NCBI RefSeq assembly: GCF_010587385.1
Contig: NZ_CP047476.1
Location: 744,001-808,000 of the forward strand
Source of the DNA: Vibrio astriarenae
Lineage (GTDB): Bacteria; Pseudomonadota; Gammaproteobacteria; Enterobacterales; Vibrionaceae
Length of the DNA stretch: 64,000 bases
Direction of reading: 5' to 3'
Made by a program: the position numbers and the translations under genes. Below the pieces are notes generated by a model that saw only the letters and a list, made by a program, of their open reading frames with translations, did no database searches and was not told where the DNA came from. Of the stretch, positions 3,467 to 29,414 are shown piece by piece (position 1 is the stretch's first letter; each line of letters starts with the position of its first letter).

Positions 3467-3497
3467 ACTATATCGCTTAGATCGGACGAAATACGTC
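3467..3497 (-). promoter_or_regulatory. Island promoter: palindrome plus -10
   Basis: The palindrome GACGTATTTCGTC (minus strand, 3485-3497) is followed 12 bp later by TATAGT (3472-3467), a good -10 hexamer. There is no recognisable TTGACA; the palindrome sits where a -35 would be. It is one of 12 such promoters in the island and drives the array at 631-3298. Confidence 0.7.
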
Positions 3498-3545
3498 TAT
3501 ATGGCTACTATCTCTAATAAAAGCATCACATTTAAATTTCATTCA

Positions 3546-3576
3546 GACGAATTTCATCGACTTATGTTGCTATAGT
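3546..3576 (+). promoter_or_regulatory. Island promoter for the HD gene
   Basis: GACGAATTTCATC (3546-3558) is followed by exactly 12 bp and then TATAGT (3571-3576), giving a predicted start of transcription about 48 nt before the HD-domain gene. The palindrome is weaker than the other copies (CATC for CGTC), yet spacing and -10 match exactly. It reads on the plus strand, opposite to most copies. Confidence 0.65.
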
Positions 3577-3630
3577 CTTCACATCACGCCCAGAGCTGAC
3601 CTCAAGCAATCTTATGCACAACAGGTAGAG

Positions 3631-4242
3631 ATGATGCGCTATCCAAATTCCATCAATAAAGTACTTATTCAACGTATTGTTAAACAGTTCCCGTTTAACC
3701 ATAAACATTCTGAGCATGGCATGGGCCACTGGTTAAGAGTAATCAATAATGGTTTGCAGCTAGCCCAAGATAACCCCTTGATCGATATTGACGTGGTTTT
3801 TTGGTTTGGCTTGTTTCATGACTGTTGCCGACTCAATGAGCATCGCGACCCACATCATGGAGAACGAGCACGCCATTTCATTGAACAACTGCGTGACCAC
3901 CTACCATTAAACCACGCACAACTGGAACAACTTAAAGAGGCATGTGCAATTCATACCAAACATTTTTTGCACGATGACCCCACGATTGCCGCATGCCTAG
4001 ATGCTGACCGCCTCGACCTACCGAGAGTCAATGTTGATATTAACCCTGTTTATTTGTCACTTGAGGCAGCAAAGTGTCCTCAGTTAATCGCCAAATGCAC
4101 TCAAAAAGCTCGATCTTGGGCTGTCGATGAAGAGCTTGCCTCACAACTTGGCGTAGCGCACTTATTTGATATTGAGCAGCATATCCTAGACTTCTTCGAT
4201 AAATACGCACTAGACAGCTCGACACAGGGTATCAACGAATGA
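3631..4242 (+). CDS. HD-domain phosphohydrolase
   Basis: A 203-residue member of the metal-dependent HD superfamily, which hydrolyses phosphate esters, often of nucleotides. Visible metal ligands are the early histidines (HKHSEHGMGHW, about residues 25-36), the HD pair in LFHDCCRLNEH (about 67-77) and the later DADRLDLPR (about 130-138). AGGTAG precedes the ATG. It is soluble. Its stop overlaps the start of a small zinc-ribbon gene (ATGA), so the two are coupled. The gene sits behind an island promoter. The substrate cannot be told from sequence; the order of motifs resembles small stand-alone HD hydrolases rather than dGTPases or SpoT. Confidence 0.8.
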   Translation: MMRYPNSINKVLIQRIVKQFPFNHKHSEHGMGHWLRVINNGLQLAQDNPLIDIDVVFWFGLFHDCCRLNEHRDPHHGERARHFIEQLRDHLPLNHAQLEQLKEACAIHTKHFLHDDPTIAACLDADRLDLPRVNVDINPVYLSLEAAKCPQLIAKCTQKARSWAVDEELASQLGVAHLFDIEQHILDFFDKYALDSSTQGINE

Positions 4243-4418
4243 ACTACGACATCTACTACTGTCACTTCTGTAAAAAACTAACCGAGCACATGAGTGGTGA
4301 GTATATGGACGTAGAGCATGATGAGAATGGCACTCCACTCTACTTCCTTGCTATTGAACAAATCTGTCTAGAGTGCCATCACCGAGATTGTGAAGAGCTG
4401 ACAAAACCAAAGCCTTAA
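4239..4418 (+). CDS. Tiny zinc-ribbon protein
   Basis: A 59-residue protein. It carries YCHFCKK near the N-terminus and CLECHHRDC near the C-terminus, two CxxC knuckles that should bind one zinc ion. The middle is acidic. Its start codon overlaps the stop of the HD-hydrolase gene (ATGA), which implies translational coupling and a shared role, perhaps as an accessory or regulator of the hydrolase. A 14-nt perfect palindrome, GTGCTAATTAGCAC, follows the stop at 4420-4433. Function not known. Confidence 0.65.
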   Translation: MNYDIYYCHFCKKLTEHMSGEYMDVEHDENGTPLYFLAIEQICLECHHRDCEELTKPKP

Positions 4419-4454
4419 AGTGCTAATTAGCACACTTAACGACAGGCGTGGTCC

Positions 4455-5252
4455 CTACATTAACCCTACCAACCATTGCAAATATTTTGGTGGACTGTCT
4501 GGAATCCACAGCAAGCCATAAAGAACCGAATAAGGTATGAGCGCCAATACATAACAGGCAGCGCCATACAAATAACTGAGACCAATAGCGACACCGGGCA
4601 TCCCTGTTCTTTCTTGAATTAAAGGAGATTCAAGCTTGGTCAACCAATCTGTTTGTAACAATAGCCACACAAGGGCGACCTGGAAACAACAGCATATAGT
4701 CAAAAACACAGCACCCAATACAAACTGCTGTGGGAGTTGTGTGAGTGCGATGAACATTGCGAACAATGGAAGAAACAGGGGCATAAAGAAACAAACGAGT
4801 ATTTGCCAAACATTTTGTATCATGAACAGCCGCTTGCGCTTCTTTTCTATTTGTGTTGCTGCTTGGGCAGCGATTTGTTTCCTACTCTGTTCATTTCGAT
4901 AGATTGTCTCTACAACATCAAGAAAATCTCGAACATTGGTCATCTGAGGATGCCCTTTATCGCACTCCTTTGCCTCAAGCTCACCATGACAAAAAGCAAG
5001 TAAATTCTCTCTTACTACCTTGATACCGAACTCATACACTTGCCCGACCGCAAACGCCAACGCTTCGAGCATAGGTTGCGAAAAGCAACCCATACAGCGT
5101 TGTTGTCCTTGAAAATCCTCTTTTTCAAGGAATGGTATCCACACTGGGGTGTATTCTCTATTCAACTTGGAAGAGATAAAGCAGTAGGGGCATTGTTTAC
5201 TTTGGGCCGTATCCTTATTGTGACAAACGATACATTCACATTCCTTGTCCAT
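4455..5252 (-). CDS. Zinc-finger membrane protein, unknown
   Basis: A 265-residue protein. The N-terminal part holds several cysteine pairs (CECIVCHNK, CPYC, CMGC), pointing to one or two zinc knuckles. A charged helix follows (about residues 130-150). The C-terminal half has three or four hydrophobic segments ending in LLWIPDSPPKYLQW. I chose the ATG at 5252, two bases after the stop of the upstream gene and preceded by AAGGG, over an in-frame codon 87 bases earlier that would overlap that gene. It is the second gene of an operon with 5255-6043 behind an island promoter. No homologue recognised. Confidence 0.65.
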   Translation of the reverse strand: MDKECECIVCHNKDTAQSKQCPYCFISSKLNREYTPVWIPFLEKEDFQGQQRCMGCFSQPMLEALAFAVGQVYEFGIKVVRENLLAFCHGELEAKECDKGHPQMTNVRDFLDVVETIYRNEQSRKQIAAQAATQIEKKRKRLFMIQNVWQILVCFFMPLFLPLFAMFIALTQLPQQFVLGAVFLTICCCFQVALVWLLLQTDWLTKLESPLIQERTGMPGVAIGLSYLYGAACYVLALIPYSVLYGLLWIPDSPPKYLQWLVGLM

Positions 5253-5254
5253 GA

Positions 5255-6043
5255 TTACAGCCCTTGATTTAAACACCTTTCTTTGTGCACACGCACAACC
5301 ACACTGACCAGAGTATCCAATAGCGCTGGCGTTTCGCACTGCATCGACTCGATATCTCGAACTAAGTGCTTAGGTCGAACGTTACGCATGGTTTGATGAT
5401 TAGCCAGAACGAAATGTACCTCTGGCAACTGACCTTTTGTTTGATTTTCAATTACACATGTCATTAAGCCGATAGCTTCTAACTCAGACTCCAAAAAAGT
5501 TTGACGTTCGTTGGCATTGTCATGCCATGCGAGATTAATGGCCCTTTGGTTGTGTGGACGCGATGCTGCCCACTCATTGATCAGGCTGGTTGCTTGTTTT
5601 TCAATGTAGTGCAATCCACTGCTTAATAGGCCGTTATGCAGCACGTCTTTGTAGATCAGTTGAACTTCCGTTTCGCAGTATTCACTGCGATAGCCCTTGG
5701 GAATTTCGCTAATATATCTAGGGTTACGAGTTTGCTCTTCAAGTTTGAGTGCATACTCATCCCACGGTTCAACCGCTAGGTGAGATTGAACACGCCATTG
5801 AGGAATGTCGTGACTCAAAAGATCAGGCCAAGCAATAAATTCTCCACCTTCTCGCGCAAGGCAAAGTAAAGAAATAGCGTCATCCCCCGCCCCACGAAAC
5901 TTCTGTAATTCAGTGAGCAATGCTGTGATAACTTCATCTGTCGCATTCCACCACTGCTCGTTTCTAATATCGTTGTTTTTTTCGTGAAAATACCCTGGTA
6001 GAAAATGTTCGTACACGGCTTCTTCATTGGTAAAGGTCATCAT
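5255..6043 (-). CDS. Hypothetical soluble protein
   Basis: A 262-residue soluble protein, rich in acidic residues and tryptophan (NEQWWNATDEV, about residues 28-38). No membrane segment or clear catalytic motif is seen, and I do not recognise the family. It is the first gene of a two-gene unit with the zinc-finger membrane protein downstream (2 bp gap). Transcription is predicted to start about 30 nt upstream, from the island promoter at 6081-6111. Confidence 0.65.
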   Translation of the reverse strand: MMTFTNEEAVYEHFLPGYFHEKNNDIRNEQWWNATDEVITALLTELQKFRGAGDDAISLLCLAREGGEFIAWPDLLSHDIPQWRVQSHLAVEPWDEYALKLEEQTRNPRYISEIPKGYRSEYCETEVQLIYKDVLHNGLLSSGLHYIEKQATSLINEWAASRPHNQRAINLAWHDNANERQTFLESELEAIGLMTCVIENQTKGQLPEVHFVLANHQTMRNVRPKHLVRDIESMQCETPALLDTLVSVVVRVHKERCLNQGL

Positions 6044-6080
6044 CGCGCGCCTCTAGTGCTTAATGGAAATTGACACACTC

Positions 6081-6111
6081 ACTCTAACAAACGTAACCGA
6101 CGTTTTTCGTC
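6081..6111 (-). promoter_or_regulatory. Island promoter
   Basis: On the minus strand GACGAAAAACGTC (6111-6099) is followed by 12 bp and TAGAGT (6086-6081). The predicted transcript starts about 30 nt before the gene at 6043. The 12-bp spacer ends in TTTGT as in the copy near 8.0 kb. Confidence 0.7.
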
Positions 6112-7768: not shown

Positions 7769-8237
7769 TATTATGTTTACTACTTTGTAGTCACTCTGTT
7801 ATCGTTATTGAATGCATTTGTGAAATGCAGTCTAATTCTTGTTCTTTCATTGACTATTCCGCAAGCTTTATAGTTTAACCTAACGTTCGATTTTATTGTG
7901 TCACTTCATAGACTTAAAATGTTACATGAGATGACACATCTATACTACACATACACCAGTACGCTATTCGCTTTGATTTTGTGTCCATACGCTCAATCTA
8001 ACAAAAAATATGGACGTTTTCCGTCTGTCACCACTTTAAACATTATCCCATTGACTTTAATGTTTTGGGTAAAATCATCTTATAGGTTTGCTGTGTCAAA
8101 ACGACAATTTGACCGAGATTGGTTTTCGGTTTCCAATCATATCCATTAATATTAATCTGACACATGAAACAGAAAAAACACATCAACCAACACATTCATA
8201 GCATGCAGCAACCAAATCACAACATAAAATCACACAC
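7769..8237. other. Intergenic region, 469 bp
   Basis: It holds the island promoter for the GIY-YIG gene (7995-8025) and its long leader. Open frames here have no ribosome site or recognisable protein. The part next to 8237 is AT-rich and without obvious structure. Confidence 0.5.
7995..8025 (-). promoter_or_regulatory. Island promoter
   Basis: Minus strand: GACGGAAAACGTC (8025-8013), 12-bp spacer, TAGATT (8000-7995). It shares the TTTGTTAGA sequence around the -10 with the copy near 6.1 kb, so the two may be a duplicated pair. It drives the gene ending at 6239 with a leader of about 220 nt. Confidence 0.7.
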
Positions 8238-9017: not shown

Positions 9018-9338
9018 CTATGCCTCTTCCGATATCGGCCCTCCCAAAATTATTAAAGTGAGAAACATAAAATAAACAAGAACAAGTTTTTGATCTAAGG
9101 CATACTCCATACCTTGCTGGAATGTAATTCCAGAATTAAAGAAAATATGAGTAGAAACGGAATAATACGTTGCCAAGAAGCAAGGGGGTACTAGAAACGT
9201 ACATATGATGACCATGGGCCAGCGCAACTTTCTTGTCCAATGGACTGCATATATTGATAGTGCGAAGGATATGTAATACCACAAAGCCAACAAACCAAAA
9301 AACAATAACCCGTGCGACAGACATATTATAATCGACAT
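9018..9338 (-). CDS. Small membrane protein
   Basis: A 106-residue protein with three predicted membrane segments (about residues 5-30, 40-60 and 82-100) and a basic WTRKLRW loop after the first. It shares a single island-promoter palindrome with the divergent gene at 9467, which also encodes a membrane protein. The predicted leader is about 35 nt. Function unknown. Confidence 0.6.
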   Translation of the reverse strand: MSIIICLSHGLLFFGLLALWYYISFALSIYAVHWTRKLRWPMVIICTFLVPPCFLATYYSVSTHIFFNSGITFQQGMEYALDQKLVLVYFMFLTLIILGGPISEEA

Positions 9339-9379: not shown

Positions 9380-9428
9380 ACTATATCTATTCATACAGAC
9401 GAAATATGTCTAATTTAAATGGTACTAT
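9380..9428. promoter_or_regulatory. Divergent island promoter from one palindrome
   Basis: The palindrome at 9398-9410 reads GACGAAATATGTC on plus and GACATATTTCGTC on minus. A -10 lies 12 bp away on both sides: TATAGT on minus (9385-9380) and TACTAT on plus (9423-9428). Predicted leaders are about 35 nt (minus gene) and 32 nt (plus gene). One bound dimer could therefore control both genes. Confidence 0.7.
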
Positions 9429-9466: not shown

Positions 9467-10003
9467 ATGGATTACAGCAACTATGTCACTTATTATGCCA
9501 TTATTATTGGTTTTTTCTTTAACTATATTTTTACTGTCACCCCAACGTATCTGTTGACATTCGGGTTCGCTAATATTGTAAGTGAAAGACTAGCAAACTG
9601 GATGGATGGCAATGTAAAGATGATCTGTGGGATAATCAACATTATTCCAATATTCATATTCTGGCAAGAATATAAACTGATATCACTAATAGTACTTGAT
9701 ATTACCTCTTCTATAGAATTTATTAATCACGAATCTGTAGATGTAATAATGAGTGCACCTGATATACTGAAACAAAAGAGTAGTGCTTTATTTGTATTAT
9801 CACACATACTTTCCTTCGTTTACATTACAGCAGTAATCTTAATCTTCTTTGTCTTCGGAGGGATAACCTGGGCTTCAATGAGTAGGCTTATCATACCTCT
9901 CATCTTTGTTGCATTGATGTATGTAATTTACTACGCCTATATCATTGGCTATAAGGCCATCTTTACTGCATTTTGCACTGTTATACTCAAACATTTCATT
10001 TAA
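9467..10003 (+). CDS. Polytopic membrane protein, unknown
   Basis: A 178-residue protein with about five hydrophobic segments (near residues 8-35, 48-70, 70-82, 110-135 and 140-170) and almost no soluble part. It is transcribed opposite to its neighbours from the shared palindrome at 9398. No recognised family. Its base composition is AT-rich like the other membrane genes around it. Confidence 0.6.
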   Translation: MDYSNYVTYYAIIIGFFFNYIFTVTPTYLLTFGFANIVSERLANWMDGNVKMICGIINIIPIFIFWQEYKLISLIVLDITSSIEFINHESVDVIMSAPDILKQKSSALFVLSHILSFVYITAVILIFFVFGGITWASMSRLIIPLIFVALMYVIYYAYIIGYKAIFTAFCTVILKHFI

Positions 10004-11167: not shown

Positions 11168-11198
11168 ACAATAGATTACTGTTCGGACGAAATCAGTC
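11168..11198 (-). promoter_or_regulatory. Island promoter
   Basis: Minus strand: GACTGATTTCGTC (11198-11186), 12-bp spacer, TATTGT (11173-11168). The gene begins at 11129, so the predicted leader is about 32 nt. Confidence 0.7.
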
Positions 11199-14412: not shown

Positions 14413-14443
14413 AGGTTACTAGCTTGCTTAGACGAAATCTGTC
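14413..14443 (-). promoter_or_regulatory. Island promoter
   Basis: Minus strand: GACAGATTTCGTC (14443-14431), 12-bp spacer ending CTAG, TAACCT (14418-14413). The palindrome and CTAGTAAC around the -10 are the same as in the promoter at 16.25 kb. Leader about 65 nt. Confidence 0.7.
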
Positions 14444-15008: not shown

Positions 15009-15040
15009 AGCAATACCACCTAAACTCCTCCTTCTACCTC

Positions 15041-16233: not shown

Positions 16234-16264
16234 AAGTTACTAGGATGTTCAGACGAAATCTGTC
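16234..16264 (-). promoter_or_regulatory. Island promoter
   Basis: Minus strand: GACAGATTTCGTC (16264-16252), 12-bp spacer, TAACTT (16239-16234). It is nearly the same as the promoter at 14.43 kb in front of the paralogous gene. A GC-rich inverted repeat (CTCGGGATTAACCAACCCGA on minus) lies in the leader at about 16.13-16.15 kb. Confidence 0.7.
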
Positions 16265-16670: not shown

Positions 16671-16699
16671 ATTCAACTCGTCTTGTTATTTTAAATAGT

Positions 16700-16730
16700 A
16701 CTTTAACGAGTTACAGAGACGAATTTTGTC
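16700..16730 (-). promoter_or_regulatory. Island promoter
   Basis: Minus strand: GACAAAATTCGTC (16730-16718), 12-bp spacer, TAAAGT (16705-16700). It gives the shortest predicted leader of the set. Confidence 0.7.
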
Positions 16731-17397: not shown

Positions 17398-20300
17398 TCA
17401 TGCTTTGTCCAGAGCATAAGGATCGATGCCATCAAGAAGATACTGGAACACACCTTCGTTATCTTCGTCGATGGCAAAATTACAAATCAGCTCAGCTAAA
17501 AGTGCTTCATCTTCATAATCATTGTATCCAGGATTATCTCTCTGATGACCAAATTCCTCTAAAAGTAAATTCGAGTTAGTGGCCAAATCTTGCAAGCGAT
17601 ATCCACTGTTTTTGTTTTCAACAAATACCAGCTGTTTTCCTGCACGAAATCTAACAGAACTGTGCGATAAGCACTCATCTAGTCGCGCCTGCAACACCTC
17701 GACATCAACTTCAATAAGACTCGCAAGCTCCTCGAAAGAATACTCGTTCTTACGGTGATCTAATGCCATTATTTTCGTTGATTCTTCTTTTAAGCTATCA
17801 GTAACCTGTTGTTGTAGAGAAAACGACTGGTTGCCTAGTAGCCAAATCTGACCTTCACGTAACCAATTGACACCAATAGCGACAACGGGTTTTGTATACC
17901 CTAAATACTTGGCGTAGGTGGTTAACTGATGACAGTGGTGTTCAAATGCCTCTGCTGACATGACTTCATCCGATTTGTGGTCAATGATGATTAAGCCATC
18001 CTCTGTCTCAACTAAACAGTCCACTACGCCACTCACTACTGCACCGCTTTCATGCTTGGCTAGAAATGGAACTTCTGATTGAATATCTCGCGCGCCAAAT
18101 TGCAGTTGAGCCATCTCTTTAAAACTCGATATTTGCGCGGTGATCTCTGCACACAAGATTTCTTGCTGGGCAATAGCCGGTAACTTGTTCCAAAGTCTCG
18201 TTGCGTATTCTGGTTTGCTTAGTAAGACTTGATAACATTGATGCAGCCAAGTACCTACCTCAGCCGAGGAATAGTTTTCTCGGATCGGATTTAGATCCAT
18301 CGCTGCATTCAGATTTATCTTGTGTTCACGATTAAACTGTTGATTTTGTTTATCAGCTTGCAAGCTATTGGATGCGATTGTTGACGGATTAATCTCGGCT
18401 TCCAGTGACTGTGATTGTTCATGCTTGTCCCATGATTTGATGGATTTTGGAATTGGCTCAGGTTCAACACTTGCCGTGTCAACCGGATCTTGTGGCATCG
18501 GTGCTTTGGTTACCAATGCGTTCGAGTAATCTAAATCACGAATTAAGCTCAGCATATTATTGGAGCGATTCGGCAGGTCACACCAAGGCAGGATGATCTG
18601 CTCTCTTGCTCTTGTTAGTGCCACATAGCAAAGGTTCTTGAGTTGTTTGTCTAAGTCGTCAGCTTGGTCATTATCGAACTTCTCAACAGTCTTGCTGTGT
18701 GCAAATTTCGGTACAATGTTGATCCAGGCATCATCAAGCATCGAATCTGCCTGCGTTGATTGCTTGTTATATCTCAACTTAGAGGTTGGATATTTCGCTT
18801 CTAGGTCTTCATCAAGCTGCGCGACTACCACAATTGGCCATTCCAGGCCTTTTGACTTATGCCATGTCACTAAATTCACGGCATTCTTATTATCATTGTC
18901 CACGTTGGGCAGTACCGATAAACTTTCTTTGTTTACCGTCAGCCAAAGTAGGAAACTCGATAGACTGCGGCCATATACTCCCTGAGATTGCAGTGTCTCG
19001 GAGTGCGTTTGTTCAAACTCTTCTGCCAGTCCAGCCAGTTTTAGAATATTCGCGTGTCGCTGTTTTTCTTGGTGAGCTCCCGCCGCAACTGTCCCAATCA
19101 AACCTAGTGTCTGAGCGCACTGTGTTACTAATTGACACGTTGAAGCATGTCGAAATTGATCTTGTACTTCAATCAAACGATCTAACGCATCAGATTGTAA
19201 ACCAGTGTTATTTTCTTCACGCTCAATCACATCTTGTAGCGATTTCTCTAAACTTGCTTCCTTACTATAAACTTTGAGGCTGAGTTTAGCTTCTCGATCA
19301 TTAGGGTTCGCAAGGTAATTGAGTGCGCTCATCAAGTAACGCACTTCCCATTGACTGAACCAGTCGTTGTCACCACTCTTTCCTTGTTGATCTCGCTTGT
19401 AAAGAAGACCACGCGAGTCTAGAGCATTCGCAAACTTATCCAGATGTGCATGCGTTTTTGCCAACACAGCAATATCGCTTGGTCGAATCGCTCTTGGTTG
19501 TTTTGTATACCGGTCTATCACTTCAACCTGGTTATCTAGCAGCTCTTTGATGTGGTCGGCTACGGCATTTGGGTAATGCTTCTGAAACTTCTGTTGGCTA
19601 AGCTCTCCCTTAGCTGTGCACCACTCAGAGGAACTAAACTCTAACTTATGTACCCCCTTGAGCGACGACTGAAGGCCCGATTTTGCAGTTAATGAATGAT
19701 ACTGATCTGGAAAAAGTGTATGACCAAGTTGATTTACAAACGTCATCACATCTGATGCACTCCGCCAGTTGTTGGTCAACTCCTTTACGCAATTTGGATA
19801 CTGCTCTAGAAGTGAGGCGTATAGATGACTATCCGAACCCTGAAAGCCCATGATCGATTGCTTCAAATCGCCAACAATTAAGGTGTGTAGCCCCGCTTTG
19901 CTCACTTTCCAAAGGAGGTCAAATTGCTGCGGATTGGTATCTTGAAATTCATCGATAATCAAGCAATCGTACTTATTTGCGATTTCTTCAAGCCACTGCT
20001 TATCAGATAGTAGTGTGTTAGCAGTGCTTACCATGTCAGTATAATCAATCAAGCTACTTTGCGCTTTGAGGGACTGATAGTTTTGCAATGCTTCATTCGC
20101 ACCGTTAAGCAAAATTTCCACCGTTTCCAATGCCGTTCTCAGTGGCCCTTTGTGATACGCCAACTTATCGACTGCCGACCACACATCAAAAGCAAGCTGA
20201 CCATCATTTTTCTCATTCGGTTGATAGTCTCCGCCTGCTTTCTTCATAATTTTTGATGCAGATGATAAACGCTCAAGCTTTAGCCAGAACTTCCAATCGC

Positions 20301-21057
20301 GACTAATTAACTCCGGTGTTGCTTGGTATAACGCTTCAACAAATAGTGAAACTTTTTGTGTTGCTCCCCAAAGAGCAAGCAGTTCCTTTTTCTCGTACTT
20401 GCTTGTAATTGCACGCACTGAATCCAAAAGTCCTTGGTTAAGTACATCCTCTTTAGTGGATTGCGCTTGGTAAACGTCACTTAGCCCACTCGATGCCTGC
20501 TCAATTAGGCGTTGAACCAGCGCCTCATTTTTCTCTTGCGGCAGCCTCTGAAGTAAATCAAACACCGCTTTAACGTGCTCTTGCAACTTGCGAACACGAA
20601 CATCACCCTCAGCGTTTCCGCTCCACCCTGCTTCATACCCACGCAACTCAAGGCTATCAAGGATTGGATCAATCACTCGAACATCATTTAACGCTAAGCT
20701 AATCAGGACTTTCTGTTCGTTCTCTGAAAGCTGCCTCGGTTTTGCCGATAAGCCCTGCTCATAACTAAATCGCTCCAATATGCTCAGACCGAAACTATGA
20801 ATTGTCGAAATCTGCGCCTGTTCGATTTGATCTGCCGCGGCGTATAACCCTTTCTCAATCAGGGCTTGCTTAATTCGGTCCTTCATCTCTTGGGCTGCTG
20901 CTTCGGTAAACGTAACGGCCAAAATTTTGTTAGGCTGTACATGACCTTGCTCGATCCACTCCACCAATGTTTGTTGGATCTGGTAGGTTTTTCCTGCCCC
21001 TGCTCCCGCTTTAATCAGCGTTAGCGGTGCAAAATCTGTCATAGCGTTATTGGTCAT
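17398..21057 (-). CDS. AddA-like UvrD-family helicase-nuclease
   Basis: A protein of about 1219 residues of the UvrD/RecB/AddA superfamily 1A. It has Walker A (GAGAGKT, near residue 20), Walker B with DEFQD (about 370), GDLKQSIMGFQG (motif III), NNWRS (motif IV), WHKSKGLEWPIV (motif V) and YVALTRARE (motif VI). A C-terminal RecB-type nuclease has GVVDCLVE...IIDHKSDE. It should unwind and degrade linear DNA with the partner encoded upstream, which overlaps its start. Start codons are possible at 21069 (GTG), 21057 and 21042; none has a strong ribosome site. Vibrio normally uses RecBCD, so a second end-processing enzyme in an island suggests anti-phage or anti-plasmid work; this is inference. 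Confidence 0.8.
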   Translation of the reverse strand: MTNNAMTDFAPLTLIKAGAGAGKTYQIQQTLVEWIEQGHVQPNKILAVTFTEAAAQEMKDRIKQALIEKGLYAAADQIEQAQISTIHSFGLSILERFSYEQGLSAKPRQLSENEQKVLISLALNDVRVIDPILDSLELRGYEAGWSGNAEGDVRVRKLQEHVKAVFDLLQRLPQEKNEALVQRLIEQASSGLSDVYQAQSTKEDVLNQGLLDSVRAITSKYEKKELLALWGATQKVSLFVEALYQATPELISRDWKFWLKLERLSSASKIMKKAGGDYQPNEKNDGQLAFDVWSAVDKLAYHKGPLRTALETVEILLNGANEALQNYQSLKAQSSLIDYTDMVSTANTLLSDKQWLEEIANKYDCLIIDEFQDTNPQQFDLLWKVSKAGLHTLIVGDLKQSIMGFQGSDSHLYASLLEQYPNCVKELTNNWRSASDVMTFVNQLGHTLFPDQYHSLTAKSGLQSSLKGVHKLEFSSSEWCTAKGELSQQKFQKHYPNAVADHIKELLDNQVEVIDRYTKQPRAIRPSDIAVLAKTHAHLDKFANALDSRGLLYKRDQQGKSGDNDWFSQWEVRYLMSALNYLANPNDREAKLSLKVYSKEASLEKSLQDVIEREENNTGLQSDALDRLIEVQDQFRHASTCQLVTQCAQTLGLIGTVAAGAHQEKQRHANILKLAGLAEEFEQTHSETLQSQGVYGRSLSSFLLWLTVNKESLSVLPNVDNDNKNAVNLVTWHKSKGLEWPIVVVAQLDEDLEAKYPTSKLRYNKQSTQADSMLDDAWINIVPKFAHSKTVEKFDNDQADDLDKQLKNLCYVALTRAREQIILPWCDLPNRSNNMLSLIRDLDYSNALVTKAPMPQDPVDTASVEPEPIPKSIKSWDKHEQSQSLEAEINPSTIASNSLQADKQNQQFNREHKINLNAAMDLNPIRENYSSAEVGTWLHQCYQVLLSKPEYATRLWNKLPAIAQQEILCAEITAQISSFKEMAQLQFGARDIQSEVPFLAKHESGAVVSGVVDCLVETEDGLIIIDHKSDEVMSAEAFEHHCHQLTTYAKYLGYTKPVVAIGVNWLREGQIWLLGNQSFSLQQQVTDSLKEESTKIMALDHRKNEYSFEELASLIEVDVEVLQARLDECLSHSSVRFRAGKQLVFVENKNSGYRLQDLATNSNLLLEEFGHQRDNPGYNDYEDEALLAELICNFAIDEDNEGVFQYLLDGIDPYALDKA

Positions 21058-23851
21058 GTGTTTGTTCACCCGAGTCTTGTTGTTTTAGTATGTGCGCTTT
21101 GAGTAGTGGTTTTTCTTCCAGCCAATAGTTGAGATCTTTGTGTCCTCGTACACCCCAAAGCTTGATATCACCCTCTTGGTTTAAGCTGACAGTTCCTTCT
21201 TTGAGTTCGCCAATACGAGAGCTAATCATTTCCTCTGCCTTTTGAGTGGAGGACGCAATACCATCTTTGTACTTTGGTTCTATGTTCGACAGCAAAGCAG
21301 ACTTGCTTTCAACAGGATAGTTAGACACTATTTTTTGTGCTTTTGATGAATAGTAACCACTAACGTATTTACCAACGTTATTCTTTGATGTCTGCTTTAC
21401 CATCTCTGTATACAGTTGGGTTTGAATGTCATAGCCAGTATTGATACGTTCTGAGATCCCATCGGGGCCGCTGGTTTTATAATCCAAAATTAGCGTGGTA
21501 TCACCCTTAGCAAACAACGCATCAACAGTGCCTTTAATCGGCAGGTCAAAATACTGCCCGGTTAGTTTCTGTTCCTGAGCAATACTTTGCCAACCCTCCA
21601 CATCACACCAATCGACCAATGCCTCAAGAGCACGTCTGGTGTCCGATTTAAGTGAGGCTTTTTCGAGGCGCCATTGAGAACGATTTAGAAAAGGAGCTTC
21701 AAGTTCAACAGCACGATCAAAGAGGGCTTCAAAATGTTGTAAGTTGAAGGGTGAATCAGGATCAAAGTGATGCTCAAAAACACTATGCACAACGAGTCCT
21801 TTAATACGTGGCGTAAACTGCTCCGACTCCCAAGCTAAAGAGCGAATGTTTTGCTTATCAAGTAACCAAGCGAGCGGAGAAACCATCATTCGTATCAAAC
21901 TGGTTGGTGATTCAGGTCTAAGTTCTCCGTACTTATCCGTATGAATAGATAGCAAGTCCTTACCAAATTGGAACGCTTCTGGTAGTACTTCGTTTGTTGT
22001 CTTGCACTGTTCAACAGCCACTGCTTGATAGGTAAGAAAAGGAACAGTTGTAGGCTGATGCTTTATAGCCTGAATCAGGCGGTCAGGTTCGATATTACTC
22101 CCACCTTGTAGCAAGATAGCCAACTCAAACAGCGTCGAACTTGGCTGCATTAGGTCACCAACAAGAGTTTGCTCTGAGAGACTAATGTGAACGCCACCAG
22201 AAACACCAACAAACAGCCGTTTCAGTCTCTCGGTTGCCTGAACATTTTTTAATAATGGTGTGAATAAGTCTAATGTTGGTTGAGAAAGTCGATATGAATC
22301 TGATGTATCGATGCTCGGTACAATCGCTTGCGAAATATTGAACCACTGATCAAGTTGGAACACACCAGGAACTTGGGGTTTAACCTCAAAAGCCCCTTTG
22401 TTAAAGCCTAGTACGAATAAGTGTTCAACTGGCTTTATGAGCATATCTTGCTCTGACAACAACAGGACGCTATTTAGAAGCCAACGACTCTCGCACTCAA
22501 CTTGTACCACCTGTGGGTCGAGATGTTTAGAAACACTGGCAATCTGTTCATCATTAACTGCGCCTGAGACCGACAATTTGATTGAGTCCAATTGCTTGTT
22601 GAATGTGCTTTGATTGTAGTGTCCTCTCACACGGAGTAATGACGAGATAGTCTCCAACCACTCAACAAGATTTATCGAGTGGCTAAGTGGTGAAAACACT
22701 AGCTTTAGCAGCTCAAGAACATTGTCATCGACATGTTGATTGTACTCTGGGTTATCAAGATATTTCTTGTTCGACAAGTACGAACGATACTGTTTCTGAC
22801 CAAAAGCAACCGACCACGGCATCACAGGGTTAACTAACAGGCTTGCATATTGAATAGCAGCGACCTGCCCTTCTGATTGCTTCTTAGCTAGATACAGTTC
22901 AATCAACTCTTTTAACAGTAATACATCCCACTGATATTCATACTTCGCAGCACTCAAGCTTGAGAAAGGGATGCCAGAATCCACCAGCATACTTTGCAGC
23001 AATTGACGGTGGTGGCTGTTTTTTGGCAGCACTACAGCGATATCACTTTGTGCGGTAGGATTTTCATCTAAGACCGCATGTAATCGCGAGATTAACACTT
23101 GGCACTCTTCAAGCTCATCACGTGCACTGATGATGGAAAGATCATCGTTAGAGAGTGCCAAATGCTCTTGGCTCGATGAGCTATATAGACTTTCACCGAG
23201 ACGCTTAATAGCCTGATTTTGTGATGATTGATTATATAAATCATCTATACGCTGCTGAACTTTAGACAATACTTGTTGCTCAGTTGGGCAATGATTTTTT
23301 GCGTTACAGAGGTGAATCGCATCCTGTAGCCATGGTTCTAGAAGCATACCCTGAGGGACAATAATATTAAATGCAGTGAGTGATTCATGCTTCTCAAGCT
23401 CACTCAACCACGCTTTAGCAAACTGTTGATCATTGGGACGGATATGACCCATTACCTCACAAAGCGTATTTAAGTCTCTCCAGTACTTGGTCGTTCTATC
23501 GCAAAGACTCTGGGCTATTTGGTCACCAAATGAAATGTTTTCAAAATGCGAAGTTACCGGCAATTGCCTATAAACATGCCTTAACGTTTCACTAAGATCT
23601 CGCACCGTTGTAACTTCATCGACAACGAGACTTTTCGCCCAAAATGCATCTTCAACTTGATAAGCGGCATTTTTAACCGCCTCATCAAATTGATCACGAG
23701 CATCATGTTCAAAATCCAACAACCATAACTCTGCAACCTGCTCAAAAAGCGCAACACTGGTACCAACTTTGACGTTGACGCATCCATCTTCAGCCAAATA
23801 CTGACGACATTGACGGCTGCTTAATGCGTCAGGCATTAATACAAAATACAT
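21047..23851 (-). CDS. AddB-like PD-(D/E)XK nuclease subunit
   Basis: A 934-residue partner of the AddA-like helicase, overlapping its start. The C-terminal quarter has the RecB-family nuclease fold: GLVVHSVFEHHFD, then GTVDALFAKGDTTLILDYKTSG (the D...DYK core) and TQLYTEM. The large N-terminal part resembles the inactivated-helicase scaffold of AddB in layout, but I see no Walker A motif, so it probably does not bind ATP. The four cysteines of an AddB iron-sulfur cluster are not evident. No island palindrome lies before it; it may be read through from the signal-peptidase operon 106 bp upstream. Confidence 0.7.
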   Translation of the reverse strand: MYFVLMPDALSSRQCRQYLAEDGCVNVKVGTSVALFEQVAELWLLDFEHDARDQFDEAVKNAAYQVEDAFWAKSLVVDEVTTVRDLSETLRHVYRQLPVTSHFENISFGDQIAQSLCDRTTKYWRDLNTLCEVMGHIRPNDQQFAKAWLSELEKHESLTAFNIIVPQGMLLEPWLQDAIHLCNAKNHCPTEQQVLSKVQQRIDDLYNQSSQNQAIKRLGESLYSSSSQEHLALSNDDLSIISARDELEECQVLISRLHAVLDENPTAQSDIAVVLPKNSHHRQLLQSMLVDSGIPFSSLSAAKYEYQWDVLLLKELIELYLAKKQSEGQVAAIQYASLLVNPVMPWSVAFGQKQYRSYLSNKKYLDNPEYNQHVDDNVLELLKLVFSPLSHSINLVEWLETISSLLRVRGHYNQSTFNKQLDSIKLSVSGAVNDEQIASVSKHLDPQVVQVECESRWLLNSVLLLSEQDMLIKPVEHLFVLGFNKGAFEVKPQVPGVFQLDQWFNISQAIVPSIDTSDSYRLSQPTLDLFTPLLKNVQATERLKRLFVGVSGGVHISLSEQTLVGDLMQPSSTLFELAILLQGGSNIEPDRLIQAIKHQPTTVPFLTYQAVAVEQCKTTNEVLPEAFQFGKDLLSIHTDKYGELRPESPTSLIRMMVSPLAWLLDKQNIRSLAWESEQFTPRIKGLVVHSVFEHHFDPDSPFNLQHFEALFDRAVELEAPFLNRSQWRLEKASLKSDTRRALEALVDWCDVEGWQSIAQEQKLTGQYFDLPIKGTVDALFAKGDTTLILDYKTSGPDGISERINTGYDIQTQLYTEMVKQTSKNNVGKYVSGYYSSKAQKIVSNYPVESKSALLSNIEPKYKDGIASSTQKAEEMISSRIGELKEGTVSLNQEGDIKLWGVRGHKDLNYWLEEKPLLKAHILKQQDSGEQTHDQ

Positions 23852-23957: not shown

Positions 23958-24620
23958 CTAGCATCTACTTGTATACGGTGTATTTTCAGTCACGCTATAT
24001 ACAGAGCACTTAAATTGACGTCCACCTTCTGCCGACACCAAGTTAAAAAGAACTTCTTTTGTTTTTAAATAAACACCGTCAATAGGGACGTAGCCATGAT
24101 TCGGATCCATTGAATCTAATGCGTAACCTCTGTTGTCTCCGAGCGTAAAGAGGTGGTTCTCAGGGACGAGCCACTCTGGATAGGAGTTCATTAATAACGG
24201 ACTATCTTTTCGGTATTGCACATGATATTCGACATCTTCGAACTTCTCTCTAAAAAACACATAAGTATCGTTCTCGCCAACAACTTTATCAAATACCGGA
24301 TTACCGTTGATGAATAACTTCCCTTTATCAAGAAGAACAGTGTCACCAGGCAAACCAACGACTCTTTTGGTGTTGCCTTCTATCTCTTGTTCATCGACGA
24401 CAACTTGATAAGCAACAACATCACCATATTTCGGCAGATAAGTCCCCCTGTCGATCATTTGATCTTTTGTAAATGAGGTATTTTTAATCGTTGGCGCCAT
24501 GCTCTCTCCCACGCCTTTTCGTACTGTTTCGTTTGATTTAAAGTGCACAAATAACAAACACAGCCACAATGGAATAGAGGTTAAGAGTGTCATTGCTAGT
24601 CTAACAAATTTACTATTCAT
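23958..24620 (-). CDS. S26-family signal peptidase (type I)
   Basis: A 220-residue membrane-anchored serine protease of the LepB/TraF type, which removes signal peptides outside the inner membrane. It has one N-terminal membrane anchor (about residues 10-28). The catalytic serine is Ser40 in GESMAPT and the general-base lysine is Lys85 in NTKRVVGLPGD; the third conserved box is LGDNRGYALDSM. It is shorter than housekeeping LepB (one anchor, small beta domain), as usual for accessory copies. It follows two tiny membrane-protein genes in an operon behind an island promoter. Its substrate may be one of those small proteins or a protein of the island. Confidence 0.85.
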   Translation of the reverse strand: MNSKFVRLAMTLLTSIPLWLCLLFVHFKSNETVRKGVGESMAPTIKNTSFTKDQMIDRGTYLPKYGDVVAYQVVVDEQEIEGNTKRVVGLPGDTVLLDKGKLFINGNPVFDKVVGENDTYVFFREKFEDVEYHVQYRKDSPLLMNSYPEWLVPENHLFTLGDNRGYALDSMDPNHGYVPIDGVYLKTKEVLFNLVSAEGGRQFKCSVYSVTENTPYTSRC

Positions 24621-24855: not shown

Positions 24856-25005
24856 TCAACTTAGAAAAAGAAACACAATAGGAAGAATCAAAACCAGGCT
24901 AGTAATCTTGATTAGTCTCGACCAAGGAAAAAAACAATCTGCCACCCGCCTTTTTTCTTGCACGTAATACAACTCGCTCTGTAGCAATTTTTTAAGTAAC
25001 TTCAT
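24856..25005 (-). CDS. Tiny single-helix membrane protein
   Basis: A 49-residue open frame with a good ribosome site (AAAGGA, 6 bases before ATG). It has a basic and amphipathic first half and a C-terminal membrane helix (LIKITSLVLILPIVFLFLS). It is the first gene after the island promoter (predicted leader about 28 nt) and lies 7 bp before the 71-residue gene. The N-in, C-terminal helix pattern recalls phage-type or toxin-like small membrane proteins, but that is only a resemblance. Confidence 0.5.
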   Translation of the reverse strand: MKLLKKLLQSELYYVQEKRRVADCFFPWSRLIKITSLVLILPIVFLFLS

Positions 25006-25039: not shown

Positions 25040-25070
25040 ACTATAAATAATCTCATCGACATTTTCCGTC
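25040..25070 (-). promoter_or_regulatory. Island promoter
   Basis: Minus strand: GACGGAAAATGTC (25070-25058), 12-bp spacer, TATAGT (25045-25040). It drives the two tiny membrane genes, the signal peptidase and possibly the helicase-nuclease pair. Confidence 0.7.
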
Positions 25071-25198: not shown

Positions 25199-26272
25199 TT
25201 ACGCGGCGTAAGTTGACATTGAACGCTGAAGTGAACGGATCACATCATCACGAATATGCTGAGGAGATAAAATTTCGACATGACTTGCGTTTGTCATTAG
25301 CCACTCTTTAAACGCTAAGCAATCACGTGCTTTTGCCTTCAACACATAGTGACTCTGATCTTCTGACTCGACCCATTGGCACGCACTCAGTTTGTACTCG
25401 TCAACAAACTTGTTTAAGCCTTGATAGTTCTTTTTCATTTTCAAAGTCACTTCGGACTCTAACCCACCATTAAAATACTTGCCTGCAGAGGATGCGAGGT
25501 AATCTTCTAATACGAACTCCTCTGTTGCCTTCATTGCAAAGTGTTGTTTGTTGTGAACTTCAGAATGACTCATTCTGTGTACAGCATAAGTGCGGTACTC
25601 ATCGGTCATACCTTTAGTAGCAGCGCCCGATTTTAGACGTTCATACCCCACTAAGAAGAAAGTCTTTCCGTACACAAACAGGCCATAAGGATCTACTTTG
25701 CGCTTTGCGCCAGAGTATTCAAAAGTGATTGGTTTACCTGATTCCAATGCAGTTTCAACGTTTTTCAACACCGTCTTGTCGATTTCTGGTGCGATAGTTT
25801 GATATCCAGCATCTTTTAGAGCGTAAAGTGTTTGTACCTGTCTAGGCTTTGATTCAGAGAATAGCGGGAAAACGTCCAAAAGAATTTGTTGCTTGCTTGG
25901 TGGCATTTTGTCTTTCAGGTTTTCGCTAGCCAGCATAATCACTTCTCTTGAATCACTAAGTGATGCGCTGAGAGGCAGTTGCTTTTGGTCTTTTACTTTG
26001 TAAACCGCATCCATACCTGTACCACTACGCACCATAATATCCACTTGGTCTCTTGGGGCGTCACCACAGTCACCATGATAATGATAGATCCCTTCTAGGA
26101 TTCGCTGGGCCCATTTGAAATCACTTTCTTTACTTGATCCATCGCGATTATAAAATGCTTGCTCTTTCACATTAGCTAAAAACTCACGAGGGGTTAGTCC
26201 CTCTTTCCGTTCTGTTAGCAAATTAATGCAGTGTTGATGACAGTAATAGTTTTCAATAGATTTTGCAGACAT
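25199..26272 (-). CDS. WYL-domain transcriptional regulator
   Basis: A 357-residue regulator. An N-terminal winged helix (about residues 1-110, with LTPREFLANVKEQ) is followed by a WYL domain (about 165-240: ITFEYSG, RKVDPYGLFVYGKTFFLVGY, RTYAVHRMS). A WCX-type tail (about 265-345: EVTLKMKK, VEILSPQHIRDDV) completes it. WYL proteins sense nucleotides or DNA damage products and often repress defence islands (BrxR, CapW). AGGAG precedes the ATG. It is divergent from a second WYL gene. It is a prime candidate for the protein that reads the island palindrome, but neither WYL gene has that palindrome in front. Confidence 0.85.
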   Translation of the reverse strand: MSAKSIENYYCHQHCINLLTERKEGLTPREFLANVKEQAFYNRDGSSKESDFKWAQRILEGIYHYHGDCGDAPRDQVDIMVRSGTGMDAVYKVKDQKQLPLSASLSDSREVIMLASENLKDKMPPSKQQILLDVFPLFSESKPRQVQTLYALKDAGYQTIAPEIDKTVLKNVETALESGKPITFEYSGAKRKVDPYGLFVYGKTFFLVGYERLKSGAATKGMTDEYRTYAVHRMSHSEVHNKQHFAMKATEEFVLEDYLASSAGKYFNGGLESEVTLKMKKNYQGLNKFVDEYKLSACQWVESEDQSHYVLKAKARDCLAFKEWLMTNASHVEILSPQHIRDDVIRSLQRSMSTYAA

Positions 26273-26513: not shown

Positions 26514-27533
26514 ATGACTACTAAAATTGCGCGCTACCACAAACTACTAGAAAGTATCCCTTGTCATCCCAAAGAGATAACGACAACCAGGCTACGTCAG
26601 ATCCTTGAAGAGCATATGCTCTTCAACGACAACGATAACGAAAAATCGAACACTCGGACTATCCAGGGTTTACTCAAAGAGATTGTGAACATGCATTCCG
26701 ACGTAGAAGTCGTAGAACTGCCACAAGGTAACGTTTATAAGATTAGGGAGGGTCAAGCACACCCCTTCTGTGTTGACAATTTCTCATCTACTTTGGTACT
26801 ACAACTAATCGAAGAGCATATTCAAACTATGCTTCCCCCAACGTTGCACAAAGAAACAATAGGACTCTTCAATCAAGTCAATAACAAGAAGAACATCCGA
26901 TATGACTTGTGGAAAAAGCACTTTTGCTTTGCCTCAACAGAGTTTCAACTTGTCCCTTCACTCATAGACAGTGATATGTTTTCTAAGATCGAAGATGCCA
27001 TTCAGCGCGATCGTGATCTTACTATTGAGTATATGCCTAACAGAGAACGGCAACTTAAACAGTACCACTTAACTCCTAAAGGTATTGTTCTCAACGGGTC
27101 TGATACTTATGTTGTGGGCTATAGCCACACCTCTGGAGGCTATCGCAATTTCGCGTTTCATAGAATTAACTCAATCGATAGCCATTTCCGCACTCCTGGC
27201 TCTTATCAAAATGATCAATTCTGTTTACGTACCTATGTAGAAAATGACCGCCTCTTCGGTGGTGATGAGGTTGAGCTGACACTTAAAATCAACCGCGCTA
27301 ATGGCTTTCATTTTTTGCAAAACAAACAAATTGGTGAAAACCAACGCATCATTGAGGAACATGACGAGCATGTCATTATTAAAGTTAAAGTGAGGAACAG
27401 CTTCGACCTCTCACGCTGGTTGACTAAGCATGCCGATGTTATTCAAGTTCTGGCACCCGAGAGCATTAGAAGGCGCGTAGTTTATTCTCTAAACTCTGCC
27501 CTAAAGCAATATGAAGAGCTAGAGGCTGTATAA
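26514..27533 (+). CDS. WYL-domain transcriptional regulator
   Basis: A 339-residue regulator with the same layout as its divergent neighbour. An N-terminal winged helix (about residues 1-85, TTTRLRQILEEHMLF) is followed by a WYL core (about 165-225: LTIEYMPNRERQLKQYHLTPKGIVLNG is split over two strands, then TYVVGYSHTSGGYRNFAFHRIN). A WCX-like tail follows (VELTLKINR, IIKVKVRN, IQVLAPESIRRRVV). The usual Phe-His-Arg of the WYL site is kept (FAFHRI). The two proteins are diverged paralogues. No clear ribosome site precedes the ATG. It is terminated by a strong hairpin. Confidence 0.85.
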   Translation: MTTKIARYHKLLESIPCHPKEITTTRLRQILEEHMLFNDNDNEKSNTRTIQGLLKEIVNMHSDVEVVELPQGNVYKIREGQAHPFCVDNFSSTLVLQLIEEHIQTMLPPTLHKETIGLFNQVNNKKNIRYDLWKKHFCFASTEFQLVPSLIDSDMFSKIEDAIQRDRDLTIEYMPNRERQLKQYHLTPKGIVLNGSDTYVVGYSHTSGGYRNFAFHRINSIDSHFRTPGSYQNDQFCLRTYVENDRLFGGDEVELTLKINRANGFHFLQNKQIGENQRIIEEHDEHVIIKVKVRNSFDLSRWLTKHADVIQVLAPESIRRRVVYSLNSALKQYEELEAV

Positions 27534-27546
27534 GTCATCACAGTAG

Positions 27547-27583
27547 GTCAGTTAGAAGACGATTTGATTTCCTTCTAACTGAC
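27547..27583. terminator. Strong hairpin between convergent genes
   Basis: GTCAGTTAGAAG pairs perfectly with CTTCTAACTGAC across a 13-nt loop. It lies between the convergent WYL gene and the membrane protein 27626-29047, and probably serves both. Confidence 0.6.
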
Positions 27584-27625
27584 TTCCGTCACATCACAAC
27601 ATTTCCTATCCGAATTTAACTTCGA

Positions 27626-29047
27626 CTAAAACATCCGGAAGTATGCCCCTCCAAATAGGGACTGAATCAAAACAGATGCACTACCCGTGTATGCTAAAGC
27701 GAATTGCTGTAGTACAGGTAAAGCCTCAATTTGCTTTTCAATAGAGGGGGTGTCGATGAATATGGTCTGTGCTAATACAAGAGGTGCACAGATAACCACC
27801 ACCCACAAACCAACATCAATCCATCTAAACGTTTTGCTGCTCTTGTTGTTAAAACAGAATACTTTGATCAAGGAAGCTAATAATGATCGCGTATTTAACA
27901 CAATACAAATAGCTGAAAAAAACAAAGCCACAAAAGGAATGATAAAAATGCGCCCAACAGTCTCCATCAGTTCTGGGTCCCGGTTACTGTACCCTGCCGA
28001 GTACTTTGTTTTGAGATTATTGGGTACAACATCCTTATAGTGGCGATAGAATGACTCTATCGTGAGATTCAGACGCAATGGTTTTTCACTCGCAAAGATA
28101 TCGATCTCTTCGTTGATCTTCTTAATCACATCTGGACTGCTTAAAGGAGAGTCAAGGTGCTTCACTGCGACAGAAACGCCATATAGTGACCTTATCCTTT
28201 TTTGTTTTTCTCTATTCAACTCGCTTTGGTACTTTGCCATCAACTTATCGGTAAACTCTTTTCGCCCTTTTGTTGGATGCCATTGAGCTGACATACGGAC
28301 GCCTGATTTCTTGAAAATCTCTTCTTTGATTCGTTCGGTGATCTTTGCATGCCCCAACCTTCTCACGTAGCGGTTATAGTTCGAGACCACTTTTCTATAC
28401 TCGGCATCCACTTTGTTTTTAAATGGTCTTTCCGCATTTCGAGCATATCGATTATATTGTTCTAGAACAGAAAGGACTGAGCTGCTGACCTTGCGGTAGT
28501 TGTCATAATAGAAAGGTAGGTTGGATCTAAACTCACTTTCATAAATTGGCAACCAATAGTCAGTTTTGAGTCTAGCATTGTCATTGTATTGCTTTGCTTG
28601 ATTGATCACGATAGGCGTAAGCAACGCTATCTGAACATTCGTTACCTTATCATCAACGCTATTGGTTTTTAAAAAGCGTACATTGTTGGCATAGGATTTT
28701 TGGATCATATAGGCACGATAATGACGAGCTTGTTCAGCTTCCCCTCTTGAGTCGAGGTAGGTATCGACAAAGATTTTCTGACCATAGTAAGTCGCACTGA
28801 AAACACACATGATGAGTAGGCATACCTGCCATTTCCCACGTTCTTTTCTTCCTAGTGCAAATTGCTTAAACGCCAGGATAGACATGCCAATACCAGATAG
28901 CGTCCTTCCGTAAAACTCTATGTCTTCTATAGTATGCACACCATCAAAGCGAATCGCGTGCAGCAAGCTTAAAAAGAAGCTCGTTTCTAATGCTAAATAA
29001 GCACCGGAAATAATAAGCATTGAATACGCGATGGACTGTCTCGACAT
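27626..29047 (-). CDS. Membrane protein with large soluble middle domain
   Basis: A 473-residue protein. Two membrane helices stand at the N-terminus (about residues 8-30 and 45-65), possibly a third at 75-90. A charged, helical middle of about 260 residues, rich in Lys, Arg and Tyr (about 95-360), is followed by three C-terminal helices (about 370-395, 415-440 and 445-468). The layout suggests an anchored periplasmic or cytoplasmic coiled region held between two membrane bundles. AGAGG precedes the ATG. It has its own island promoter about 70 nt upstream. I do not recognise the family. Confidence 0.65.
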   Translation of the reverse strand: MSRQSIAYSMLIISGAYLALETSFFLSLLHAIRFDGVHTIEDIEFYGRTLSGIGMSILAFKQFALGRKERGKWQVCLLIMCVFSATYYGQKIFVDTYLDSRGEAEQARHYRAYMIQKSYANNVRFLKTNSVDDKVTNVQIALLTPIVINQAKQYNDNARLKTDYWLPIYESEFRSNLPFYYDNYRKVSSSVLSVLEQYNRYARNAERPFKNKVDAEYRKVVSNYNRYVRRLGHAKITERIKEEIFKKSGVRMSAQWHPTKGRKEFTDKLMAKYQSELNREKQKRIRSLYGVSVAVKHLDSPLSSPDVIKKINEEIDIFASEKPLRLNLTIESFYRHYKDVVPNNLKTKYSAGYSNRDPELMETVGRIFIIPFVALFFSAICIVLNTRSLLASLIKVFCFNNKSSKTFRWIDVGLWVVVICAPLVLAQTIFIDTPSIEKQIEALPVLQQFALAYTGSASVLIQSLFGGAYFRMF

Positions 29048-29414
29048 GTGACCTCTCTAACAATTGGAATCAAGAACCATGTGAAGCCTATTTATCAAAA
29101 GTAAAAAGCTTCTTCTTGATTCATATCGTAATTGGAGATGCAAGACGAAATCCGTCCGAGTGACAAGACAGAAAATAAGATCTAGACAAAAACTAAGACA
29201 CAGTACTGAGGCCGATTGGAACACCAATATTAAGTAAATATTTGAATGTGATCTGAAAAATGAATGGCACTATTTTGTTCACCTATTACAAGCCAGACGA
29301 TGCCTTTCCACTGTCAAAAAAGGCCATTCGCTGCTATTAAGTTTTCCTAAAATCACGCGGAGCATACACCCTGTAAACTGTCGAACAATACGCTCAAATT
29401 TCGATGCACTACAG
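29048..29414. other. Intergenic region, 367 bp
   Basis: The left part holds the last copy of the island promoter. The part from about 29,200 to 29,414 lies after the stop of the GHKL gene; no gene or clear terminator is seen there. This gap marks the border between the regulon island and the defence block. Confidence 0.5.
29125..29156 (-). promoter_or_regulatory. Island promoter (13-bp spacer)
   Basis: Minus strand: GACGGATTTCGTC (29156-29144), then 13 bp and TACGAT (29130-29125). It is the only copy whose spacer is 13 rather than 12 bp. Leader about 70 nt. Confidence 0.6.

Follow-up and report, generated by a model that had tools for sequence, protein, structure and literature searches.

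A fixed gap between a palindrome and the −10 hexamer suggests a WYL protein as activator of an island-wide regulon in Vibrio astriarenae

How can the promoters of a whole genomic island be recognised when they have no −35 element to speak of? The question is raised by a stretch of 64,000 nucleotides from Vibrio astriarenae (assembly GCF_010587385.1, contig NZ_CP047476.1, positions 744,001 to 808,000 of the forward strand), here called the window, in which copies of a 13-bp palindrome, the box, stand ahead of nearly every transcription unit of an island. The box promoters drive most of the island's left half. Two divergent genes in the window encode proteins with WYL domains, WYL1 (25199..26272, minus strand) and WYL2 (26514..27533, plus strand). 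The answer proposed here is that WYL1 is probably an activator of the type of DriD from Caulobacter crescentus, doing the work of a −35 element across the island, with the boxes as its operators. Box coordinates are positions in the window; G000 is the genome under study and C2 the contig that carries the island.

All 11 palindromes described in the initial annotation of this DNA are present, and the pattern GACNNAWTTCGTC at no more than two mismatches recovers 11/11. Taken alone, this loose pattern shows only slight enrichment: the window has 45 matches, shuffled sequences have 29.0 ± 5.1, and one shuffle of 100 reaches 45. The palindrome without a −10 hexamer is therefore unimpressive in 64 kb, and the case rests on the fixed gap. 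A palindromic weight matrix was trained on the 11 window boxes, which score 14.6–20.1 bits, and scanned over 104 kb around them. It adds two untrained sites left of the window, −814 (18.1 bits; C2:743186) and −200 (20.5 bits; C2:743800), and the next-best match has 12.8 bits. At each of these two, TANNNT again follows after exactly 12 bp, and the array starts ∼0.8 kb to the left of the window, a correction to the initial annotation. The total is 13 boxes and 14 promoters, box 9398 being used in both directions. TANNNT follows at a gap of 12 bp in 13 of the 14 promoters and at 13 bp in one (29144), and no other gap between 0 and 39 has more than two; the count first given for the window, 11 of 12 promoters at 12 bp and one at 13 bp, was exact, as was the fourfold recurrence of TATAGT as −10 hexamer. 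A genome-wide scan for the sites had also been proposed. The pattern GACNNAWWWYRTC-N12-TANNNT has 13 matches in the 4.8-Mb genome, 13/13 of them within C2:743168-769070 (reversed control pattern, 2), and a stricter form has six, all in the island (control, 0). These counts support a single shared promoter design and a regulon restricted to the island.

When the −10 hexamer is placed at −12 to −7, the box spans −37 to −25 with its centre at −31, in the place of a −35 element, as first described. Every promoter (14/14) has GAC and the central A; 13 carry GTC at the right end, the other having ATC. Ahead of GAC there is a preference for YR, which corrects the earlier consensus; the base directly before GAC is A in nine promoters, G in five and never C. 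The 12-bp spacer is unconserved, except that −14 is G in 8/13 of the promoters with this spacing. The initial annotation had found no good TTGACA in any promoter, and the best −35 hexamer at spacings of 15–19 bp in fact scores below random (mean −1.54 vs +0.51; P about 0.001), so the box promoters have no −35 to speak of.

A promoter of such uniform design might have arisen by repeated copying of one cassette, with no regulator acting on it at present. That the boxes are alike and clustered would fit such copying. However, the spacer and upstream flanks have diverged among the boxes while the box and the −10 have not, and homologous genes in a second genome (G163, described below) keep box and gap despite drift of the box letters; copying alone is thus a very improbable account.

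Published WYL systems, described here from those parts of the cited papers that were available, offer a close precedent. DriD, which turns genes on upon DNA damage, is a homodimeric WYL activator switched on by single-stranded DNA (ssDNA), with the consensus ATACGAC-N7-GTCGTAT, in which arginines contact guanines; its sites lie across the −35, and their spacing from the −10 is constant (PMC12340889, a 2025 preprint). The initial annotation knew of no regulator with this box, a statement that no longer holds: the DriD consensus contains the same GAC-N7-GTC core, in the same register by our reading of the printed promoters. The hexamers were assigned in this analysis from three sequences printed in the methods of that preprint. 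Each DriD site is followed after 12 bases by CAAGGT (didA), CAATCT (the operon divergent from driD) or CAAGCC (bapE), with G at −14 in 3/3. For the driD-divergent operon this is the direction reported in PMC12340889, whereas the bapE site is weak and was picked among ties because it aligns with didA. Reading in the opposite direction gives no such hexamer for didA, and for driD the printed sequence ends too early. Island and DriD promoters thus share the core, a site over a poor −35, a single 12-bp distance to the −10 and G at −14. DriD does not control its own gene (PMC12340889), and the intergenic region between WYL1 and WYL2 is likewise without a box; it holds one inverted repeat with 9-bp arms, 32 bp apart. 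The two systems differ in their −10 hexamers, which are TAnnnT in the island, in the number of promoters (at least 14 in one island, against five DriD promoters aligned in the available part of PMC12340889) and in their targets, which here are AddAB-like, S26-like and membrane proteins.

The protein points in the same direction as the operator. WYL1 has WYL and WCX domains by Pfam and no Pfam winged helix-turn-helix domain; its structural model has helices at 3-66 with strands at 80-93, helices at 104-150, then WYL and WCX. The domain order of DriD, winged helix-turn-helix, helical bundle, WYL and WCX, is thereby matched, the first domain of WYL1 being predicted. Residue R57, which hardly varies, falls within the predicted third helix of that first domain. 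The model is of moderate quality (mean predicted local distance difference test score 76.5, predicted template modelling score 0.43). Its best structure match is DriD, top in both comparisons, followed by PafBC and then BrxR/CapW, with PafBC and BrxR tied by Z. Core and register are shared with DriD, the predicted fold is nearest to it, and the box also lies beside relatives of WYL1 in other genomes.

Close relatives of WYL1 occur in 5/226 other genomes of the genus (40–54% identity), with 15 distant ones in 14 more; none was found on plasmids at 1e-10, and none in viral contigs. A relative from Vibrio sp. 1F255 (P0010, 55%) carries a C-terminal exonuclease domain, PF00929. In 5/5 close loci a GAC-N7-GTC box adjoins the WYL1 gene. 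In four of these genomes (G151, G015, G204 and G206) it lies between WYL1 and a gene for an S26 peptidase and is followed by N12-CACAAT in 4/4; counting G163, where the hexamer is TAAGAT, five genomes besides G000 place the S26 gene behind a box-N12 promoter.

The same loci bear on whether the box belongs to another regulator, for which WYL2, the GIY-YIG-type protein with helix-turn-helix repeats encoded at 6239-7768, or a host protein could be put forward. WYL2 adjoins WYL1 and has WYL and WCX domains, and the 6239-7768 protein has several helix-turn-helix-like matches. A search of the five other box genomes with WYL2, however, turned up no orthologue of it; the only matches were the WYL1 orthologue and, in G204 and G206, a further WYL protein at 29%. 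Sites outside the island would be expected for a host regulator, but 13/13 genome matches fall within it; the boxes, moreover, adjoin WYL1 relatives. Ownership by another protein is accordingly rated as improbable, and where the initial annotation had put forward both WYL proteins, WYL1 stays as the candidate and WYL2 does not.

The fifth genome, G163, holds a second island of this kind. Its homologues include WYL1 (54%), the 27626-type membrane protein (43%), S26 (40%), AddB (46%) and AddA (54%), further the 15041 (30%), 12560 (40%) and 5255 (45%) types, and a glycine-zipper protein (70%) on another contig. The genome-wide pattern has nine places in G163, seven of them at the island or the start of another contig (C8:88686-99999, C11:2036-2084), against four for the reversed control. 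Box-N12-TANNNT stands ahead of the homologues of 27626, S26, 15041 and 5255; the box there reads GACA..TGTC instead of GACG..CGTC, a drift that has left the gap unchanged. At C11:2036-2084 (L071) the box has the same 12-bp spacer on both sides, giving one long palindrome with N12-TATATT in one direction and N12-CATTTT in the other; a gene for a phage-type integrase lies nearby.

The distant relatives reveal a related arrangement. GAC-N7-GTC lies at the 5′ end of the WYL gene in 13/15 of these loci (12 after the palindrome filter, plus L039), and in 11/15 the neighbour is a divergent gene that looks rmuC-like by eye (L025-L031, L034, L037-L039); the one such neighbour that was tested, a partial sequence, scores below the cut-off of the RmuC model that it matches. 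Box-N11-CATAAT points toward rmuC at ten of these loci and occurs at five other places in the 227 genomes (15 vs 6 for the reversed control). Among the best 30 WYL loci by Pfam from 148 genomes of the order, taken as a control, the box is at background (4/30; eight control triplets, 1 to 10). The strict pattern has ten places in nine of the 227 genus genomes besides G000, against 21 reversed-control matches among those listed; it thus shows nothing elsewhere in the genus and no other cluster. Several of these places are alike between genomes and may be coding. One place, G197:C2:471112 (L045:9131), is a perfect palindrome with N12-TATTGT (21.0 bits) that stands alone and points away from the adjoining 420-aa gene; no WYL1-like gene was noted in the 19 kb around it, where open reading frames were compared with the window proteins.

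The register also extends to the mycobacterial PafBC, a heterodimeric WYL sigma adapter activated by ssDNA, which inserts between promoter DNA and sigma domain 4; its consensus is tTGTCRgtg-8 nt-TannnT (PMC5656591). Its GTC lies exactly 12 nt ahead of TannnT, as in the island, so a GTC half-site takes the same place in the island, DriD and PafBC. In contrast to the heterodimer and its non-palindromic motif, the island has a palindrome, and elsewhere one WYL gene (WYL1) accompanies the box. A PafBC-like heterodimer of WYL1 and WYL2 is not preferred, because the search with WYL2 gave no orthologue in the five box genomes. The middle promoters of phage T4 that depend on MotA/AsiA also have a box centred at −30/−31 that replaces the −35, plus a −10, a likeness in geometry only. 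SiwR of mycobacteria, a WYL activator by its paper's title, has a palindrome of 19 bp that extends between the −10 and −35 regions (PMC10693628), which supports the activator side.

The initial annotation had allowed for either an activator that replaces the −35 or a repressor that covers it. The latter would make WYL1 a protein of the BrxR/CapW kind, which blocks sigma region 4 on the box and is released by a phage or DNA-damage ligand. BrxR of Acinetobacter does bind over the −35 (about −51 to −27), BrxR of E. fergusonii represses, and CapW, also a repressor, has palindromic sites over the −10 (PMC9122601, PMC9122589, PMC9122588). These proteins share the WYL dimer fold, palindromic operators and a defence setting with the island, and Zorya type II genes are present in the window as well; at the distant WYL-rmuC loci, furthermore, the WYL gene has a possible −10 upstream of the box. 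In contrast, their operators are about 19–27 bp long, lie over −35 and/or −10 elements and are described as one or two per locus. The BrxR promoter is described with a canonical −35 and −10, whereas the island promoters have no −35. A repressor needs no gap fixed to one base in 13/14 promoters and at homologous genes across species, and DriD, whose operator core and register the island shares, is an activator. Repression by WYL1 is therefore considered unlikely, and activation probable. Two further repressors of defence islands, RptR (PMC12255303) and CapS (PMC13373217), were set aside, as they have other sites in the available text (TAGCTA and TTAA half-sites, respectively).

Several observations nevertheless weigh against WYL1 as a DriD-type activator. 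On the side of the DNA, the outer flanks ATAC/GTAT of the DriD consensus are not kept in the island boxes; these flanks are taken as the specificity of one protein and not as a trait that defines the family. One window promoter, 29144, has the gap of 13 bp, the box ahead of WYL1 itself in G163 has TATTAT at 11 bp and not 12, and the gap toward rmuC in the distant pairs is 11; the WYL-rmuC boxes could, moreover, be repressor operators of the WYL gene. In the four genomes where the S26 gene is the only such target, the loose pattern has 24 matches genome-wide against 31 for the reversed control, so only placed sites count there (several TGTCACT-containing matches with a −10-like hexamer at 12 bp in these genomes look like PhoB boxes). 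Control triplets counted anywhere in the locus occur in 3/5 close and 9/15 distant loci, and the argument therefore rests on position at the WYL or S26 gene. On the side of the protein, the identity between WYL1 and DriD in the structure alignments is 16–22%, and the root-mean-square deviation is large and the model moderate, so that the placement of the domains is unmatched. The WYL1 sequence alone has no match in the PDB; a profile of 18 sequences finds the C-domain of DriD at 8.8e-14, over WYL-WCX only. Where DriD has the stretch R-S-W-R-L-D-R, WYL1 has R-T-Y-A-V-H-R, with two of the three arginines kept and the middle one missing, and the four S26-only relatives also lack the last one. The ligand of WYL1 may therefore differ, and the missing arginine weakens a simple transfer of the ssDNA signal. 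Finally, the WYL proteins known to be associated with islands, BrxR and CapW, are repressors in the available accounts.

With these points weighed, a DriD-type WYL1 is still the preferred account. We infer from the comparisons above the binding of WYL1 to the box, activation, ssDNA as its signal and the island's purpose. WYL1 would presumably act as a homodimer whose two winged-helix domains contact the GAC and the GTC half of the palindrome (−37 to −25), respectively, at a distance of one helical turn. It would then lie about where a −35 would be contacted by sigma region 4, and could hold RNA polymerase in place on promoters with a −10 element, frequently preceded by G at −14, and no −35. 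All box promoters would then be switched on together. The trigger is probably ssDNA, as it arises when DNA is damaged, when a phage replicates or when a nuclease acts. This signal is suggested because DriD and PafBC are activated by ssDNA, the WYL1 relative P0010 is fused to an exonuclease domain and the targets include AddAB-like proteins.

Which genes would be placed under such a switch? One run is headed by box GACGGAAAATGTC (25058..25070, minus strand, N12-TATAGT) and consists of an S26 signal-peptidase-like protein (23958..24620), the target kept in five other genomes, an AddB-like PD-(D/E)XK protein (21047..23851) and an AddA/RecB-like UvrD helicase-nuclease (17398..21069, below NCBIfam cut-offs), all on the minus strand. 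Among the 227 genus genomes, AddB relatives at E <= 1e-30 are confined to G000 and G163; plasmid matches number ten records, all below 60% identity (22–28% in the eight listed). A small open reading frame of 49 aa (24856..25005, minus strand) stands directly after the 25058 promoter and ahead of the S26 gene, and a 47-aa frame after the S26-gene box in G163 is alike by eye. Likewise, 49 codons from −870 follow right after the promoter of box −814, so that at least two long apparent leaders contain a small open reading frame immediately downstream of the promoter. To the right, box GACGGATTTCGTC (29144..29156, minus strand, N13-TACGAT) serves a membrane-protein-like gene (27626-29047), whose G163 homologue has N12-TAGATT.

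The remaining boxes serve the left part of the island, where two face away from each other: GACGTATTTCGTC (3485..3497, minus strand, N12-TATAGT) serves 2768-3298 and the paralogue genes behind it, and GACGAATTTCATC (3546..3558, plus strand, N12-TATAGT) an HD-domain gene (3631-4242). The four frames lined up behind the 3485 box (631-3298, minus strand) contain about five related repeats by eye; two of them were run against Pfam without a match, and they could be immunity-like paralogues. Box 9398..9410 has two divergent promoters, N12-TATAGT (minus) and N12-TACTAT (plus), for membrane-protein-like genes at 9018-9338 and 9467-10003. On the minus strand, 6099..6111 (N12-TAGAGT) serves 5255-6043 and 4455-5339; 8013..8025 (N12-TAGATT) serves 6239-7768; 11186..11198 (N12-TATTGT) serves 10662-11129; 14431..14443 (N12-TAACCT) serves a gene run from 14341 down to 11259; 16252..16264 (N12-TAACTT) serves 15041-16036 and 14535-15050; and 16718..16730 (N12-TAAAGT) serves 16293-16676. 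The G163 homologues behind 6099 and 16252 have box-N12-TACATT and box-N12-TATTAT, respectively.

Relatives of 5255 occur in 12/329 genomes of the family, with the box ahead of the gene in G000 and G163 only; one such locus (L113) has a weak box match elsewhere, pointing away. Photobacterium gaetbulicola has relatives of both WYL1 (41–42%) and 5255 (61%), seemingly on one contig of 24,498 bases, and Thaumasiovibrio contigs hold homologues as well; no member of the 5255 family was found in phages. The minus-strand gene at 6239-7768 encodes T5orf172 (GIY-YIG-type) after several matches of helix-turn-helix or NUMOD kind, resembling the DNA-binding repeats of homing endonucleases. Pfam assigned nothing to 8/10 further island and G163 proteins. 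To the right of the box regulon, three minus-strand genes (32207-35381) match the Zorya type II models ZorA2, ZorB2 and ZorE2; box-N12-TANNNT is absent from them in the genome-wide pattern search.

The initial annotation spoke of an undescribed regulon. The mechanism is already known from DriD, and the island-wide regulon with AddAB, a signal peptidase and membrane proteins looks new: no title or visible abstract among the open-access papers listed for WYL regulators with palindromes, in Vibrio, or with rmuC or DriD describes it, and island-wide use, its targets and the register common to PafBC are not stated in the available parts of the DriD and PafBC literature. More tentatively, homodimeric (DriD-like) and heterodimeric (PafBC) WYL activators might share the register with GTC at −27 to −25. 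The Vibrio island, with its recombination nuclease AddAB, a signal peptidase of its own, its small membrane proteins and, probably, functions in defence, might then stand under one ssDNA-sensing switch and fire as a unit on DNA damage or phage replication, with the Vibrio WYL-rmuC pairs as a chromosomal form. If true, a whole-island activator would follow a different logic from that reported for the WYL repressors of defence loci, BrxR and CapW. The fixed register gives a search rule for such regulons, GAC-N7-GTC-N12-nAnnnT beside a WYL gene, and the island provides at least 14 promoters in which to study how WYL activators dispense with the −35. It would also suggest that AddAB-like and RmuC-like recombination proteins in Vibrio are under WYL control.

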